Positions 9,525 to 26,639 of a DNA stretch of 32,075 nucleotides are shown here, piece after piece. The notes below the pieces were generated by a model. The model was not told the DNA's origin. It searched no databases and worked only from the letters and a program-made list of their open reading frames with translations. Source of the DNA: Parvularculaceae bacterium (GTDB lineage Bacteria > Pseudomonadota > Alphaproteobacteria > Caulobacterales > Parvularculaceae); NCBI GenBank assembly GCA_015487305.1, contig WFQB01000104.1, forward strand, positions 1 to 32,075, given 5' to 3'. Each line of letters opens with the position of its first letter. The first letter of the stretch is position 1. Both the position numbers and the translations under genes were made by a program.

Positions 9525-10097
9525 TCAAGACCGATGCTGATGAACCCGTCCGAAATTTAAATATTTTGTCGGGTTTACGGACCTTCCATGCTCGCGGGTT
9601 TCAAAATGCAAATTAGGGCCACTGGCATTGCCGGTGCGCCCAACCGTGCCAATCTCGACCCCGGCCGTTAAGCGCGCCCCTTTTTTCACATGAATATGAT
9701 CGAGATGGGCATAATAGGTCTGCAACCCATTTTTGTGATCAATAATAATGATTTTGCCATAGCCGTTTTTCCAACCGGAAAAACTGACAATCCCATTGGC
9801 CGCAGCGCGCACCGGCTCTCCCTTATGGGCCGCCAGATCCACCCCATGATGAAAGGAATTGCGCCGCGGTCCATAGCCGGAGGTCTTGACTTTGAAATTC
9901 ACCGGCATCAGCAAAACCGCCTTGACCCCGCCTGCGGGCGCACCGGTAACCGGACCAGACGGGTAGGGCATGGGGGCAGGGTTTGGCGGCGCTGACGCAC
10001 AGGCCGCAAGACCTGCCAAACCGCCCGCAAGAACCGTCATTTTAAAAAGCTTCAAAGAAGAAAAAGAGGGGGGCAATTTTTTAATCATACAAAACAC
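9525..10097 (-). CDS. M23/LytM-type peptidase, putative lipoprotein
   Basis: Lipobox LAACAS; peptidase motifs HHGVDLAA, YYAHLDHI, GPNLHFE. Confidence 0.92.
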   Translation of the reverse strand: MFCMIKKLPPSFSSLKLFKMTVLAGGLAGLAACASAPPNPAPMPYPSGPVTGAPAGGVKAVLLMPVNFKVKTSGYGPRRNSFHHGVDLAAHKGEPVRAAANGIVSFSGWKNGYGKIIIIDHKNGLQTYYAHLDHIHVKKGARLTAGVEIGTVGRTGNASGPNLHFETREHGRSVNPTKYLNFGRVHQHRS

Positions 10098-10262: not shown

Positions 10263-11573
10263 ATGACTGAGTTTTCCCCGCGCGAAATCGTCTCCGAGCT
10301 TGATCGCTTTATCATTGGCCAGCAAAAAGCCAAACGCGCCGTGGCCGTGGCCTTGCGTAATCGCTGGCGACGGCGGCAATTGGAAGGCAGCCTGCGCGAT
10401 GAGGTCACCCCAAAAAATATTTTAATGATCGGCCCAACCGGTGTTGGTAAAACCGAAATTTCCCGCCGTCTGGCCAAACTCGCCGGGTCCCCCTTTGTCA
10501 AAGTCGAAGCAACAAAATTTACCGAGCTTGGTTATGTTGGCCGCGATGTAGATTCAATCATTCGCGATCTCATGGAAATTGCCTTGGGCATGGTGCGCGA
10601 AAAAAAACGCGATGAAGTGCGCAGCAAAGCCCATGGCGCTGCCGAAGAACGCGTGCTCGAAGCGCTGGTCGGTGAAAATGCTTCTGCGGCAACCAAAAAC
10701 AGTTTTCGACAAAAATTGCGCGATGGCGATTTGGATGATCGGGAAATCGAACTCGCCCTTGCCGATAATGCTCGCGGCAATATGCCCTTAATGGATATTC
10801 CCGGCATGCCCGGCGCACAAATGGGCATGCTCAACCTGTCTGATATTATGGGCAAAGCCTTTGGCGGGCCAACAAAGACCCGTAAATTAAAGGTCAAAGA
10901 TGCCTATGAACCATTGATTGCCGAAGAAAGCGACAAATTGCTTGATGATGATAATCTCACACAAGAAGCCCTTGCGCTTGTAGAAAATGACGGCATTGTT
11001 TTCCTCGACGAGATTGACAAGGTTGCCCGCTCTTCGGAAAGGGCCGGGGCCGATGTCTCTCGCGAAGGCGTGCAACGCGACCTCTTGCCCTTGATAGAAG
11101 GCTCCACCGTGCCAACCAAATATGGTCCAGTAAAAACCGATCATATTTTGTTTATTGCATCCGGCGCCTTTCACCTCGCCAAACCCTCCGACCTCTTGCC
11201 GGAATTACAAGGCCGCCTGCCCATCCGCGTCGAGCTTGATGCCCTGACCCGCGATGACTTTATCTGTATACTGAAAGATACCGAGGCCAGTCTGGTGCGC
11301 CAATATCAGGCCTTGATGGAAACCGAGGGCCTATCGCTTGACTTTACCGAGGATGGCATTGCCGCCATTGCCGACACGGCGGCGCAGGTCAATGCCAGTG
11401 TCGAAAATATCGGTGCCCGGCGTCTGGCGACAATTTTGGAAAAAGTGCTTGAAGATGTATCCTTCCGGGCCGGAGAAACCAAGGATGAGAAAGTCGTCAT
11501 TGATGAAAAATTTGTCACTGACCATCTTGGCGATCTCGCCAAAAACACCGATCTGTCCAAATTCATCCTCTAA
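10263..11573 (+). CDS. hslU: ATP-dependent protease ATPase subunit HslU
   Basis: [56 protein letters not shown]-terminal DLSKFIL. Confidence 0.98.
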
Positions 11574-11695: not shown

Positions 11696-13081
11696 ATGGC
11701 AGGCGGTTTTATAGCGTATCAGGATGAAGAGCACGGCCTTGGTTTCAAGGTCGCGCAAATATTGGCCAAAGAATACGCCTTAAATGGGAAAAACCAAAGG
11801 GGTGGCTTGTCTGTTTCGGACCAGAAACAACCTGATTCCATACCGCCAAAAGTCTCGCCACGGCGCGATAGCACCTCCACTCTGGCCTCTTTGGTCTCCC
11901 ATCAGGCACAATTTGCCGTTCTTCCCCTTGAGGATGATCGCGGCAAATATAACAAGCTGTCTTTGGAAGCTCTCATTGACTTTAAAGATTATTATATCGA
12001 AGCAGAGATGCGCGATGAAGATGACTATGTCCTCGCCGTGCCTTCGGTTTCGATTTACGAACTTGGCGAAAGCGCTTTTCCATCTTCCCATAAGGGCGCG
12101 TCCCATATAGGAGCCTTACCGCGTAATCTTGAAGCGCAGGATCTATTGCGCCGCCGGGTTGGCGTCATTTATGCTTCCGCCGATGCTCTGGAGCGCTGCC
12201 AGGCAGCCCTGCATGGCTATGAGGCCCAAGGCATTCAGGTCCAGCGCCTTGCCGATAATGAAGACCCTTATCGCACCGTGCTTAATAAAGCGCTTGAAGG
12301 TCTCGATCAGGATAGGATGATTTTCACCGGACTTGATGACGGCGATTCAACCGTCAAACGATTGAGCGGCATGCGCGCCGCCAATCACGCCAAACCACTG
12401 ATCGGCGTTTTGCTGCCCCGTGATGTGGCCACTATGGGCCGCCAAACATCAAGCAATGGGCTTGCCGATCCAAGTTCTTCTGAATATGTGCTTTTGGACG
12501 ACCATCTTGAAGGCAATACCAAATTATCAGAGCGGTTTTTAGTCCTAAGCCGTCTGCAAGAACGCTCTCGGGGGGCCAAACCGGTTATCGGTGTCATTGG
12601 TCAACAAGATGTGTGGATGAAGAAAGTCAACAAAGCCTTCAAACGCTTCCTGCCAAAGAGCCAAGGCAATTATCCTGAGCATAAATTTGCCCGCTTTTTA
12701 ATCAAGCTTGATAGTCGCGGCAAAGGCGTTCTCGACATTGATGAGATTACCAATGAGCTTATCCGCAAGGGCCTTTCCTATACGCCAATCGTATTAAACA
12801 AACGCCCGGAACGCCTGCCGGTTATTTTAGAAGTTGAAGTTCCCAATGAGGAACAGGCGCGCAAGAATTTCAAATATATTTTATCCAAATGCCATCTACC
12901 CGGTCGCAATTGGAACACCCGCTTCCTTGGCGGCTATGGCACCGATGTTAAAATGGATGTCATTATGCCAACCCCATCTCACCGCTGGAGCTGGAAGGCC
13001 TTTACATTGGGCGCCATCGCTTTAACCGCCGCAACCGCCGGTATTTGGCTGCTTCATTATTTTGACAAGCTTCCCTTTTAA
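11696..13081 (+). CDS. Divergent prephenate-dehydratase-like + ACT-like protein with C-terminal TM anchor; probable pseudoenzyme
   Basis: PDT-like landmarks in the right order: FIAYQ (5-9), FAVLPLEDD (73-81), YASADALERC (159-168), NTKLSERFLVLSR (274-286); ACT-like segment ARFLIKLDSRGKGVL...IVLNKRPERLPVILEVEV...RFLGGYG (332-415); C-terminal hydrophobic helix 434-456. The ORF is certain; the family call is by motif reading. Confidence 0.7.
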   Translation: MAGGFIAYQDEEHGLGFKVAQILAKEYALNGKNQRGGLSVSDQKQPDSIPPKVSPRRDSTSTLASLVSHQAQFAVLPLEDDRGKYNKLSLEALIDFKDYYIEAEMRDEDDYVLAVPSVSIYELGESAFPSSHKGASHIGALPRNLEAQDLLRRRVGVIYASADALERCQAALHGYEAQGIQVQRLADNEDPYRTVLNKALEGLDQDRMIFTGLDDGDSTVKRLSGMRAANHAKPLIGVLLPRDVATMGRQTSSNGLADPSSSEYVLLDDHLEGNTKLSERFLVLSRLQERSRGAKPVIGVIGQQDVWMKKVNKAFKRFLPKSQGNYPEHKFARFLIKLDSRGKGVLDIDEITNELIRKGLSYTPIVLNKRPERLPVILEVEVPNEEQARKNFKYILSKCHLPGRNWNTRFLGGYGTDVKMDVIMPTPSHRWSWKAFTLGAIALTAATAGIWLLHYFDKLPF

Positions 13082-24260: not shown

Positions 24261-26639
24261 GTGACAAATGGCGGGGATAGGGTTATGGGGATTTTCACCA
24301 ATAGCGCAGGGCGATCATTTTCTTTTGCGCATATGACTGGCGTCGGGGTTTTTACATTTTTCGCAAGCATATTTTTAGCCCCTGCCGCTTTGGCCGAAAC
24401 GGTGCTTGCACAATCTCCGGGATGTCAGGCGGTCAATAATGGCGACCTCAATCTGGTTATTCCCGGTCTGGCCAAAACAACAACCCCGATGAAAAACAGC
24501 AATGGCTTTCTCGACGCCAATGTAACAGCAGACTTTAATAGCGGGGACAGGCTGATAATCACCTATGATGTGATAGATCATGCCATTGCCAGCGATGATA
24601 CCGCGTCTGTTATTTTTCTCAATGATGAAGATATTGCCGGCCAACCGATCATTCAAAGACAAGCCAATTACACTATTCCCGCGACAGGTAACAGATCCAT
24701 TACCACCCAATTTTCCGTGGCGGGTTATGACTATCCAGACCGGGGCTTAAGCGCTATTTGCGAACCGGTACAAACCGGCAGTATTACCATTATCAGCCAG
24801 ACCGACGGCCCTAATGGCAGCTTTGCCTATAGCGGCACTTTAACGACATTTACCAATGACACTCAAAACGGTTCTGCCAGCACCCTGTTTTCAGACCTTG
24901 CAACAGGTAGCTATTTATTTGTCCAAGAGCCCAATCAGGATTTTGGCCTCACCAATATTAGCTGCTCTGGCCAATCAAGCGTGATTGATCTTGGGGCACA
25001 AAGCGCGGCGGTATTTCTAACCCCCGGTGAAGACATTATTTGCACATTTTTCAATGTGGATTTGTTTGATGAGGAGCGCTTTGCCAAAGACAGCACCGAT
25101 GCCATAAAAGGCTTCACCTATCGCCGGGCCCGAGCCATGCTCAATGCCGAGCCGGACCGTACATTATTTCATCACCGCAATCCAGAAAGCTTGTGGCAAG
25201 ATAGCGCCGCTGCCGCCCCGAAACTTTCTGGCAATATCATCGACAATAATGGCAGCTTAAGCTTTACGGCCAGCACCGGGCGTAAGGACAGCTCCATCTT
25301 TCATGAGGGTTTAGAGCTGTGGGTGGAAGCCAATTACACTACAGCCAAAGATGATTTTACCCTTGGTTCGATTGATAGTGAATTTGGTATTGTCTATGTG
25401 GGCGCCGATATCCAGCCAAGCGAAAACCTCATGGTCGGGCTTTTGGCATCTTTTGACTGGGCCAAGGAAAGCATAAAGGGCGATGAAATGCCATCGCTCG
25501 CCGCGCCTATGGCTTTTGGCAAAAAACAGCAAGGCAATGCTTTGCAGGATTATTTTTCCGAAAATATTATCGACCAGAAAATAAGCGGCACTGGCTGGAT
25601 GGCTGGCCCCTATATGGCAGCTCGGCTCTCAGAAAAACTGTTTTTTTCGGCGAGGATTGCCGCAGGCGGCTCCAATAATGATCTGACCCTTGATAATCGG
25701 GTCACGGATGATCCATTTGAGACCGATCGCTTTTTGGCGCGCACAGCGCTTACCGGCAATCATAATTTTGGTGATTTCCGTTTTACCCCAACCGCCTCGG
25801 TCACATGGTTTAAAGAAACCTCCAAAGCCTATATTTCCAAAACTGGCGTTCCCATCCCGAAGACCGAATTAAAACTTGGTCGGGCGGAATTAAAACCGGA
25901 GATCGCATGGCGTCACGATCTATCCGATGGCGCATGGTGGGAATCTCAATTTGCGGTTTCAGCTATATGGGATTTTGAACGCCCGGAGATTTTGGAAATT
26001 CAGGGCCTTGCCTTGCCGACAGAAGAATTTCGTGGCCGCGCCGAGGGCGGGGTGCAATTTAATTGGAAAAACGGCAATAGCCTGCGGTTTTCAGCCAGCT
26101 ATGACGGTATTGGTGCTGATGGCTATGAAGCCTATGGGGCAGGCATCTGGTTTGACATGCCATTGAGCCGCGCCAAGCCTGCACGCAAAACCAAACCGGC
26201 CCCGGCCATCCCGCCGCCAGCCTATAAATATTGCCCTGATGGGTTGCGCATTCTCGAGGTTGATCCGTGTCCGGAAGAAAAACCAATACTGCCAGCCCCG
26301 GAAGATATGAAGCTGGTGATCTATTTCGACCATGACAAATCCAATCTCTTGCCCGCAGAGCTGGCCAAAATAGATCAGGCCATTGCGGCGATGAAAGAAC
26401 GCGATGTAAAAATCGTCCTTCTGTCCGGCCACACCGACCTTTCGGGCAGTGATGCCTATAATGAGGGCCTGTCCATGCGCCGGGCCTTGGTCGTGCGCGA
26501 CGCGCTAACCGCTCGCGGCGTCATGATCGATAAAATCACTTACGAATTTTTCGGTGAAAGCAGGCCGGCAGTACCAACCAAAGACGGCGTGCGCCTACAA
26601 GCCAATCGCCGCACCGAAGTCGTAATAAAATTCAAATAG
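24261..26639 (+). CDS. Outer-membrane protein: N-terminal surface-type domain(s), autotransporter-like beta-barrel, C-terminal OmpA peptidoglycan-binding domain
   Basis: Signal peptide ending ALA-ET; Thr/Ser/Asn-rich region with SITIISQTDGPNGSFAYSG...GSYLFVQEPNQDFGLTNISCSG; alternating amphipathic strands at about aa 330-635; Pro-rich linker; OmpA domain VIYFDHDKSNLLP...LLSGHTDLSGSDAYNEGLSMRRALVVRDAL...NRRTEVVI. Internal Met9 may be the real start. Confidence 0.85.
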   Translation: MTNGGDRVMGIFTNSAGRSFSFAHMTGVGVFTFFASIFLAPAALAETVLAQSPGCQAVNNGDLNLVIPGLAKTTTPMKNSNGFLDANVTADFNSGDRLIITYDVIDHAIASDDTASVIFLNDEDIAGQPIIQRQANYTIPATGNRSITTQFSVAGYDYPDRGLSAICEPVQTGSITIISQTDGPNGSFAYSGTLTTFTNDTQNGSASTLFSDLATGSYLFVQEPNQDFGLTNISCSGQSSVIDLGAQSAAVFLTPGEDIICTFFNVDLFDEERFAKDSTDAIKGFTYRRARAMLNAEPDRTLFHHRNPESLWQDSAAAAPKLSGNIIDNNGSLSFTASTGRKDSSIFHEGLELWVEANYTTAKDDFTLGSIDSEFGIVYVGADIQPSENLMVGLLASFDWAKESIKGDEMPSLAAPMAFGKKQQGNALQDYFSENIIDQKISGTGWMAGPYMAARLSEKLFFSARIAAGGSNNDLTLDNRVTDDPFETDRFLARTALTGNHNFGDFRFTPTASVTWFKETSKAYISKTGVPIPKTELKLGRAELKPEIAWRHDLSDGAWWESQFAVSAIWDFERPEILEIQGLALPTEEFRGRAEGGVQFNWKNGNSLRFSASYDGIGADGYEAYGAGIWFDMPLSRAKPARKTKPAPAIPPPAYKYCPDGLRILEVDPCPEEKPILPAPEDMKLVIYFDHDKSNLLPAELAKIDQAIAAMKERDVKIVLLSGHTDLSGSDAYNEGLSMRRALVVRDALTARGVMIDKITYEFFGESRPAVPTKDGVRLQANRRTEVVIKFK

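Follow-up and report, generated by a model that had tools for sequence, protein, structure and literature searches.

Canonical PheA proteins, in which a prephenate dehydratase (PDT) domain (PF00800) is followed by an ACT domain (PDB 6vh5, 2qmx, 3mwb), combine a two-lobed domain of the periplasmic-binding-protein (PBP) type with a ferredoxin-like domain, an arrangement shared with the protein described below. In the E. coli enzyme, S208, Q215, N160 and T278 are important for catalysis, and the Thr of the TRF motif is considered catalytic in PDTs. Nine positions were scored in this analysis, namely E and N (EN), S and H (SHP), Q (QC), and N, T, R and F (NxTRF). Among 48 canonical PDTs, E, N (EN), Q, N, T, R and F are present in all 48, while H is found in 47 and S in 45.

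The PDT scaffold has also been reported to serve a role beyond PDT activity in GqqA of Komagataeibacter europaeus (PDB 7am0, 7alz). GqqA has 281 aa, was purified and crystallised, forms a dimer in solution, and complements E. coli pheA; the same study names four residues as important for catalysis, with E159 and E232 given as important for binding the substrate (PMC8192741). GqqA is close to ordinary PDTs, whereas the Parvularculaceae family described here is remote from them and membrane-anchored. A literature search found no description of a membrane-anchored PDT paralogue that lacks the active site. The Parvularculaceae family represents a variant of this scaffold that is new and restricted to one lineage.

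One member of this family is encoded in the window (the whole stretch of 32,075 nucleotides that was analysed, part of a 2.4-Mb draft genome whose closest named relatives are Parvularculaceae MAGs and Aquisalinus). The first-pass annotation had read it as a membrane-tethered pseudoenzyme built on the PDT-ACT scaffold, and the reading frame and motifs that it quoted are all present in 11696-13081 (+), which encodes 461 aa (Table 1). IAYQ occupies residues 6-9, FAVLPLEDD 73-81, NKRP 368-371 and FLGGYG 410-415. Promoter and terminator scans gave results at chance level.

Table 1. Features of the window gene, its protein and its conserved neighbour, in window positions.
Feature	Position	Strand	Basis or remark
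PDT-ACT-like, C-terminally membrane-anchored protein, 461 aa	11696..13081	+	ATG start; ORF bounds exact
PDT-like (PBP-II-type) domain, residues 5-286	11708..12553	+	hhalign, family vs PDT, 97.6-98.2%, E 3e-12 to 4e-14
E79-D80-D81, at the E-N-S motif site of PDTs	11930..11938	+	Residue counts in family vs canonical PDTs
YASADALERC, residues 159-168, at the (Y)SHPQALxQC site; Ser, His and Gln gone	12170..12199	+	Family: S 0/50, H 0/50, Q 1/50
SERF, residues 278-281, at the TTRF/NxTRF site	12527..12538	+	Thr-to-Glu genus-local; Thr in 43/50 family members
Linker insert, residues 287-330	12554..12685	+	Two predicted transmembrane helices at the same place in ~625-aa relatives
ACT-like ferredoxin-fold domain, residues 331-416, beta-alpha-beta-beta-alpha-beta	12686..12943	+	AlphaFold pLDDT 75; hhalign to PDT ACT domain E 6e-4
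C-terminal hydrophobic helix, residues 435-453, predicted tail anchor	12998..13054	+	Hydropathy
hslU, conserved upstream neighbour, outside the protein	10263..11573	+	Immediately upstream in 12/19 loci

Taken alone, the window protein would allow the motif reading to be a product of chance, since it has zero significant matches to Pfam and NCBIfam and its single-sequence profile scores 0.8% against PDTs, which means that the PDT family is not reached. However, the family as a whole argues against chance, because its profile aligns collinearly with that of the 48 canonical PDTs over 187 columns (hhalign, 97.6%, E 3e-12), and reversed sequences, run as controls, reach only 0.1-0.3%. The N-terminal domain on its own matches PDTs at 98.2% (E 4e-14). 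The motifs follow the same order as in canonical PheA, and the motif residues of the window protein sit in columns aligned by the family-versus-PDT comparison. When the whole PDB was searched with the family profile, the four sequences at E<=1 were all prephenate dehydratases. Several orthologues match the Pfam PDT model (PF00800; cut-off 25.2 bits), with L011 (29.4) and L037 (26.3) above the cut-off; most of the family, window protein included, escapes the present Pfam and NCBIfam models. In addition, the top 11 Foldseek matches of the full-length structure model are PDTs or the PDT-derived GqqA, at probability 1.00. Because confidence in that model is low (pLDDT 47), these matches serve only as support for the profile evidence. 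Profile, PDB search and model together uphold the PDT scaffold that had been proposed. A weak phmmer similarity to AcrIE10 (E 0.026) was set aside as chance, because it spans 62 residues inside the PDT-like domain and is absent when the family profile is used.

In contrast to canonical PheA, the family lacks the Ser and His of SHP, the Gln of QC and the Asn of NxTRF, and the genus of the window also lacks the Thr and the Asn of EN. The counts across 50 family members are S 0, H 0, Q 1, N (NxT) 1, E 8, N (EN) 21, T 43, R 41 and F 50. At most five of the nine conserved PDT positions are retained in any member, and three are retained in the window protein. The claimed loss of essential active-site residues is thus confirmed for the conserved set across the family, including the Ser and Gln replacements, but the two other replacements singled out in the window protein do not generalise: the Asn of EN is retained in 21 members and is Asp in 9, and the change of Thr to Glu is local to the window's genus, since Thr is retained in 43 of the 50. 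By its distribution, the Thr-to-Glu change is a late local event in a family already without the rest of the set. The window's genus, along with some sister genera, has lost the Thr but still has the gene. No invariant acid, base or nucleophile set was found at the PDT cleft positions of the family. Family-specific invariant polar residues (Q148, R193, R207, S224 and R333) do occur, several of them outside the PDT-aligned columns. To judge from the lost PDT residues, a family member is very likely not a prephenate dehydratase and probably does not catalyse that reaction. Some activity, perhaps of a different kind, is possible because the Thr of TRF is so widely retained.

The assignment of the C-terminal domain to the ACT type is weaker than the PDT assignment. 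AlphaFold predicts a beta-alpha-beta-beta-alpha-beta ferredoxin-like fold for the C-terminal 104 residues (pLDDT 75.4, pTM 0.72), which agrees with the ACT-like segment noted in the first pass. The ligand motif (GALV/ESRP) of Phe-binding ACT domains is not conserved in the family: the GAL of GALV is not conserved among its members, and the ESRP site is RP in short forms, EDS in long forms, and mixed RP, RDG or REG in middle forms. At the level of sequence, comparison with the ACT domain of PDTs gives no more than a suggestive link (hhalign, E 6e-4, 28.7%; reversed control E 0.5). Foldseek searches with the isolated domain retrieve PII-like and generic ferredoxin folds, not specifically the PDT ACT domain, at a TM of ~0.5. 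The top matches of the predicted model are PII and PII-like proteins (GlnK, SbtB; E 1.5e-3 and up), which would share its ferredoxin-like topology, but the domain belongs to a PDT-like protein and the likeness seen is one of predicted fold. Phenylalanine, which had been suggested as the sensed ligand, finds no support here, given that GALV is absent, that ESRP is partly kept in short forms only, and that Foldseek favours PII-like folds.

Extra inserts, a C-terminal membrane helix and coexistence with a genuine PheA further distinguish the family from canonical PheA. Orthologues range from 446 to 648 aa and share 20-86% identity with the window protein (whole-genome searches). They fall into short (~450 aa, to which the window protein belongs), middle (~510-560 aa) and long forms (~540-650 aa), and most long forms have two extra predicted transmembrane helices between the two domains. 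The hydrophobic tail seen in the window protein, whose best 19-residue stretch (435-453) has a mean Kyte-Doolittle value of 1.79, is nearly universal among its relatives, with hydropathy >1.6 in nearly all members. It therefore holds as a family trait, unlike the Asp and Glu substitutions that had been noted with it. The window protein is very likely membrane-bound by this predicted tail anchor. Since it has no signal peptide and a very short C-terminal tail, its soluble part is most likely cytosolic. In the G001 orthologue (L004/L034 near position 1789), an in-frame TAA drops only the last few residues past the membrane helix.

A profile search found the family in 56 of 60 genomes of the Parvularculaceae, a small marine group of bacteria, and in 0 of 239 other genomes of the same order, and in a sample of 395 genomes from the class it was seen in the window genome only. 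Weak matches in two other alphaproteobacteria (G643, G471) are canonical pheA, with SHP-like and TRF motifs present. A scan of viral contigs with the neighbour hslU returned no relatives. Four Parvularculaceae genomes have no detectable copy: G034, G061 (genus g3), G031 and G010. The loss seems real in G034 and G061 because both are 99-100% complete; G010, at 78% completeness, has no detectable pheA either. In 12 of 19 loci the gene immediately follows hslU, and it usually converges with an Smr-domain gene and an mltA-like gene. A functional tie to HslVU, based on position alone, was dropped, as no fusion was found and the gene is displaced a few genes from hslU in genus g3. Within the window, an M23 family peptidase gene at 9525-10097 (-) stands between hslV and hslU, two genes that are usually neighbours.

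Another contig of the window genome encodes an intact PheA of 286 aa that has every motif. This answers the question raised earlier of a separate canonical pheA and means that the cell can make phenylalanine without the window protein. Canonical pheA is present in 40 of 41 genomes of the bacterial family. A phylogenetic tree places the paralogue family as sister to alphaproteobacterial pheA (93%) on a very long stem (1.86), which may make this placement an artefact. A duplication near the base of the Parvularculaceae is likely but not certain on this tree.

In the explanation preferred here, with moderate confidence, the gene encodes a tail-anchored paralogue of PDTs that is specific to this lineage, has been neofunctionalised, does not serve as a prephenate dehydratase and probably acts as a ligand-binding regulator. 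An alphaproteobacterial pheA would have been duplicated in the ancestor of the Parvularculaceae, and the copy would have settled downstream of hslU and become membrane-tethered. It may retain the two-lobed PBP-type cleft of PDTs and the C-terminal ferredoxin-like (ACT-type) domain, and it would make no phenylpyruvate because most of the residues needed by PDTs are lost. The C-terminal helix would anchor the protein in the inner membrane, its soluble part most likely facing the cytosol, and the cleft, the ACT-like domain or both could bind a small molecule. Closure or dimerisation might then alter a partner in the membrane, or a complex formed with some other protein. A regulatory or sensing role is most likely for the paralogue. 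Near-universal in Parvularculaceae, strongly selected and present alongside a normal PheA, it would offer a clean case of the passage from biosynthetic enzyme to sensor or regulator.

The main rival, because Thr-Arg-Phe is kept in most members, is an enzyme of changed specificity that would use the PDT cleft and these residues on another substrate at the membrane. It is possible but doubtful. The retention of TRF (Thr 43/50, Arg 41/50, Phe 50/50), the strong purifying selection and the new family-invariant polar residues speak for it, yet the Thr is missing from the window's genus and some sister genera although the gene persists there, and the cleft shows no invariant set of catalytic residues. 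A precedent exists in GqqA, in which acylase activity has been added to the PDT scaffold (PMC8192741), but GqqA still has PDT activity. The protein could also be a receptor for small molecules at the membrane, its PDT cleft having reverted to the work of a binding protein, while the ferredoxin-like domain would act on a membrane partner in the manner of PII or SbtB. This reading is unlikely; the second copy that two genomes carry next to an ammonium transporter gene would be in keeping with it. A role as a pseudo-subunit is quite improbable. In that case the protein would pair with PheA in mixed dimers, by way of the PDT and ACT interfaces, and so recruit PheA to the membrane or alter its feedback inhibition. 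Canonical PDTs do dimerise through these domains, as in the GqqA structure (PMC8192741), but the two genes are not adjacent and the divergence of the paralogue is extreme. The presence of a canonical pheA in the genomes of that set of 41 that have the paralogue is uninformative on this point, because pheA is near-universal. That the gene is a decaying, functionless pseudo-copy of pheA is hardly credible: the missing active-site residues and the in-frame TAA of the G001 orthologue might suggest decay, but dN/dS within the genus is 0.09-0.16, indicating clear purifying selection, and the occurrence in 56/60 genomes of the bacterial family and the conserved position and tail, together with this selection, refute it.

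The second copies in two genomes (L136:6010-7254, G228:C7; and L137, G347:C137) are shorter, at 404-414 aa, and more diverged. They adjoin a small hydrophobic protein of ~97 aa and are divergent from the ammonium transporter gene (PF00909, 328 bits), and a glnK was not seen in their vicinity. Elsewhere in the window, positions 24261-26639 (+) encode a 792-aa protein that combines an autotransporter beta-domain, an OmpA domain and a SpaA-like (prealbumin fold) segment.
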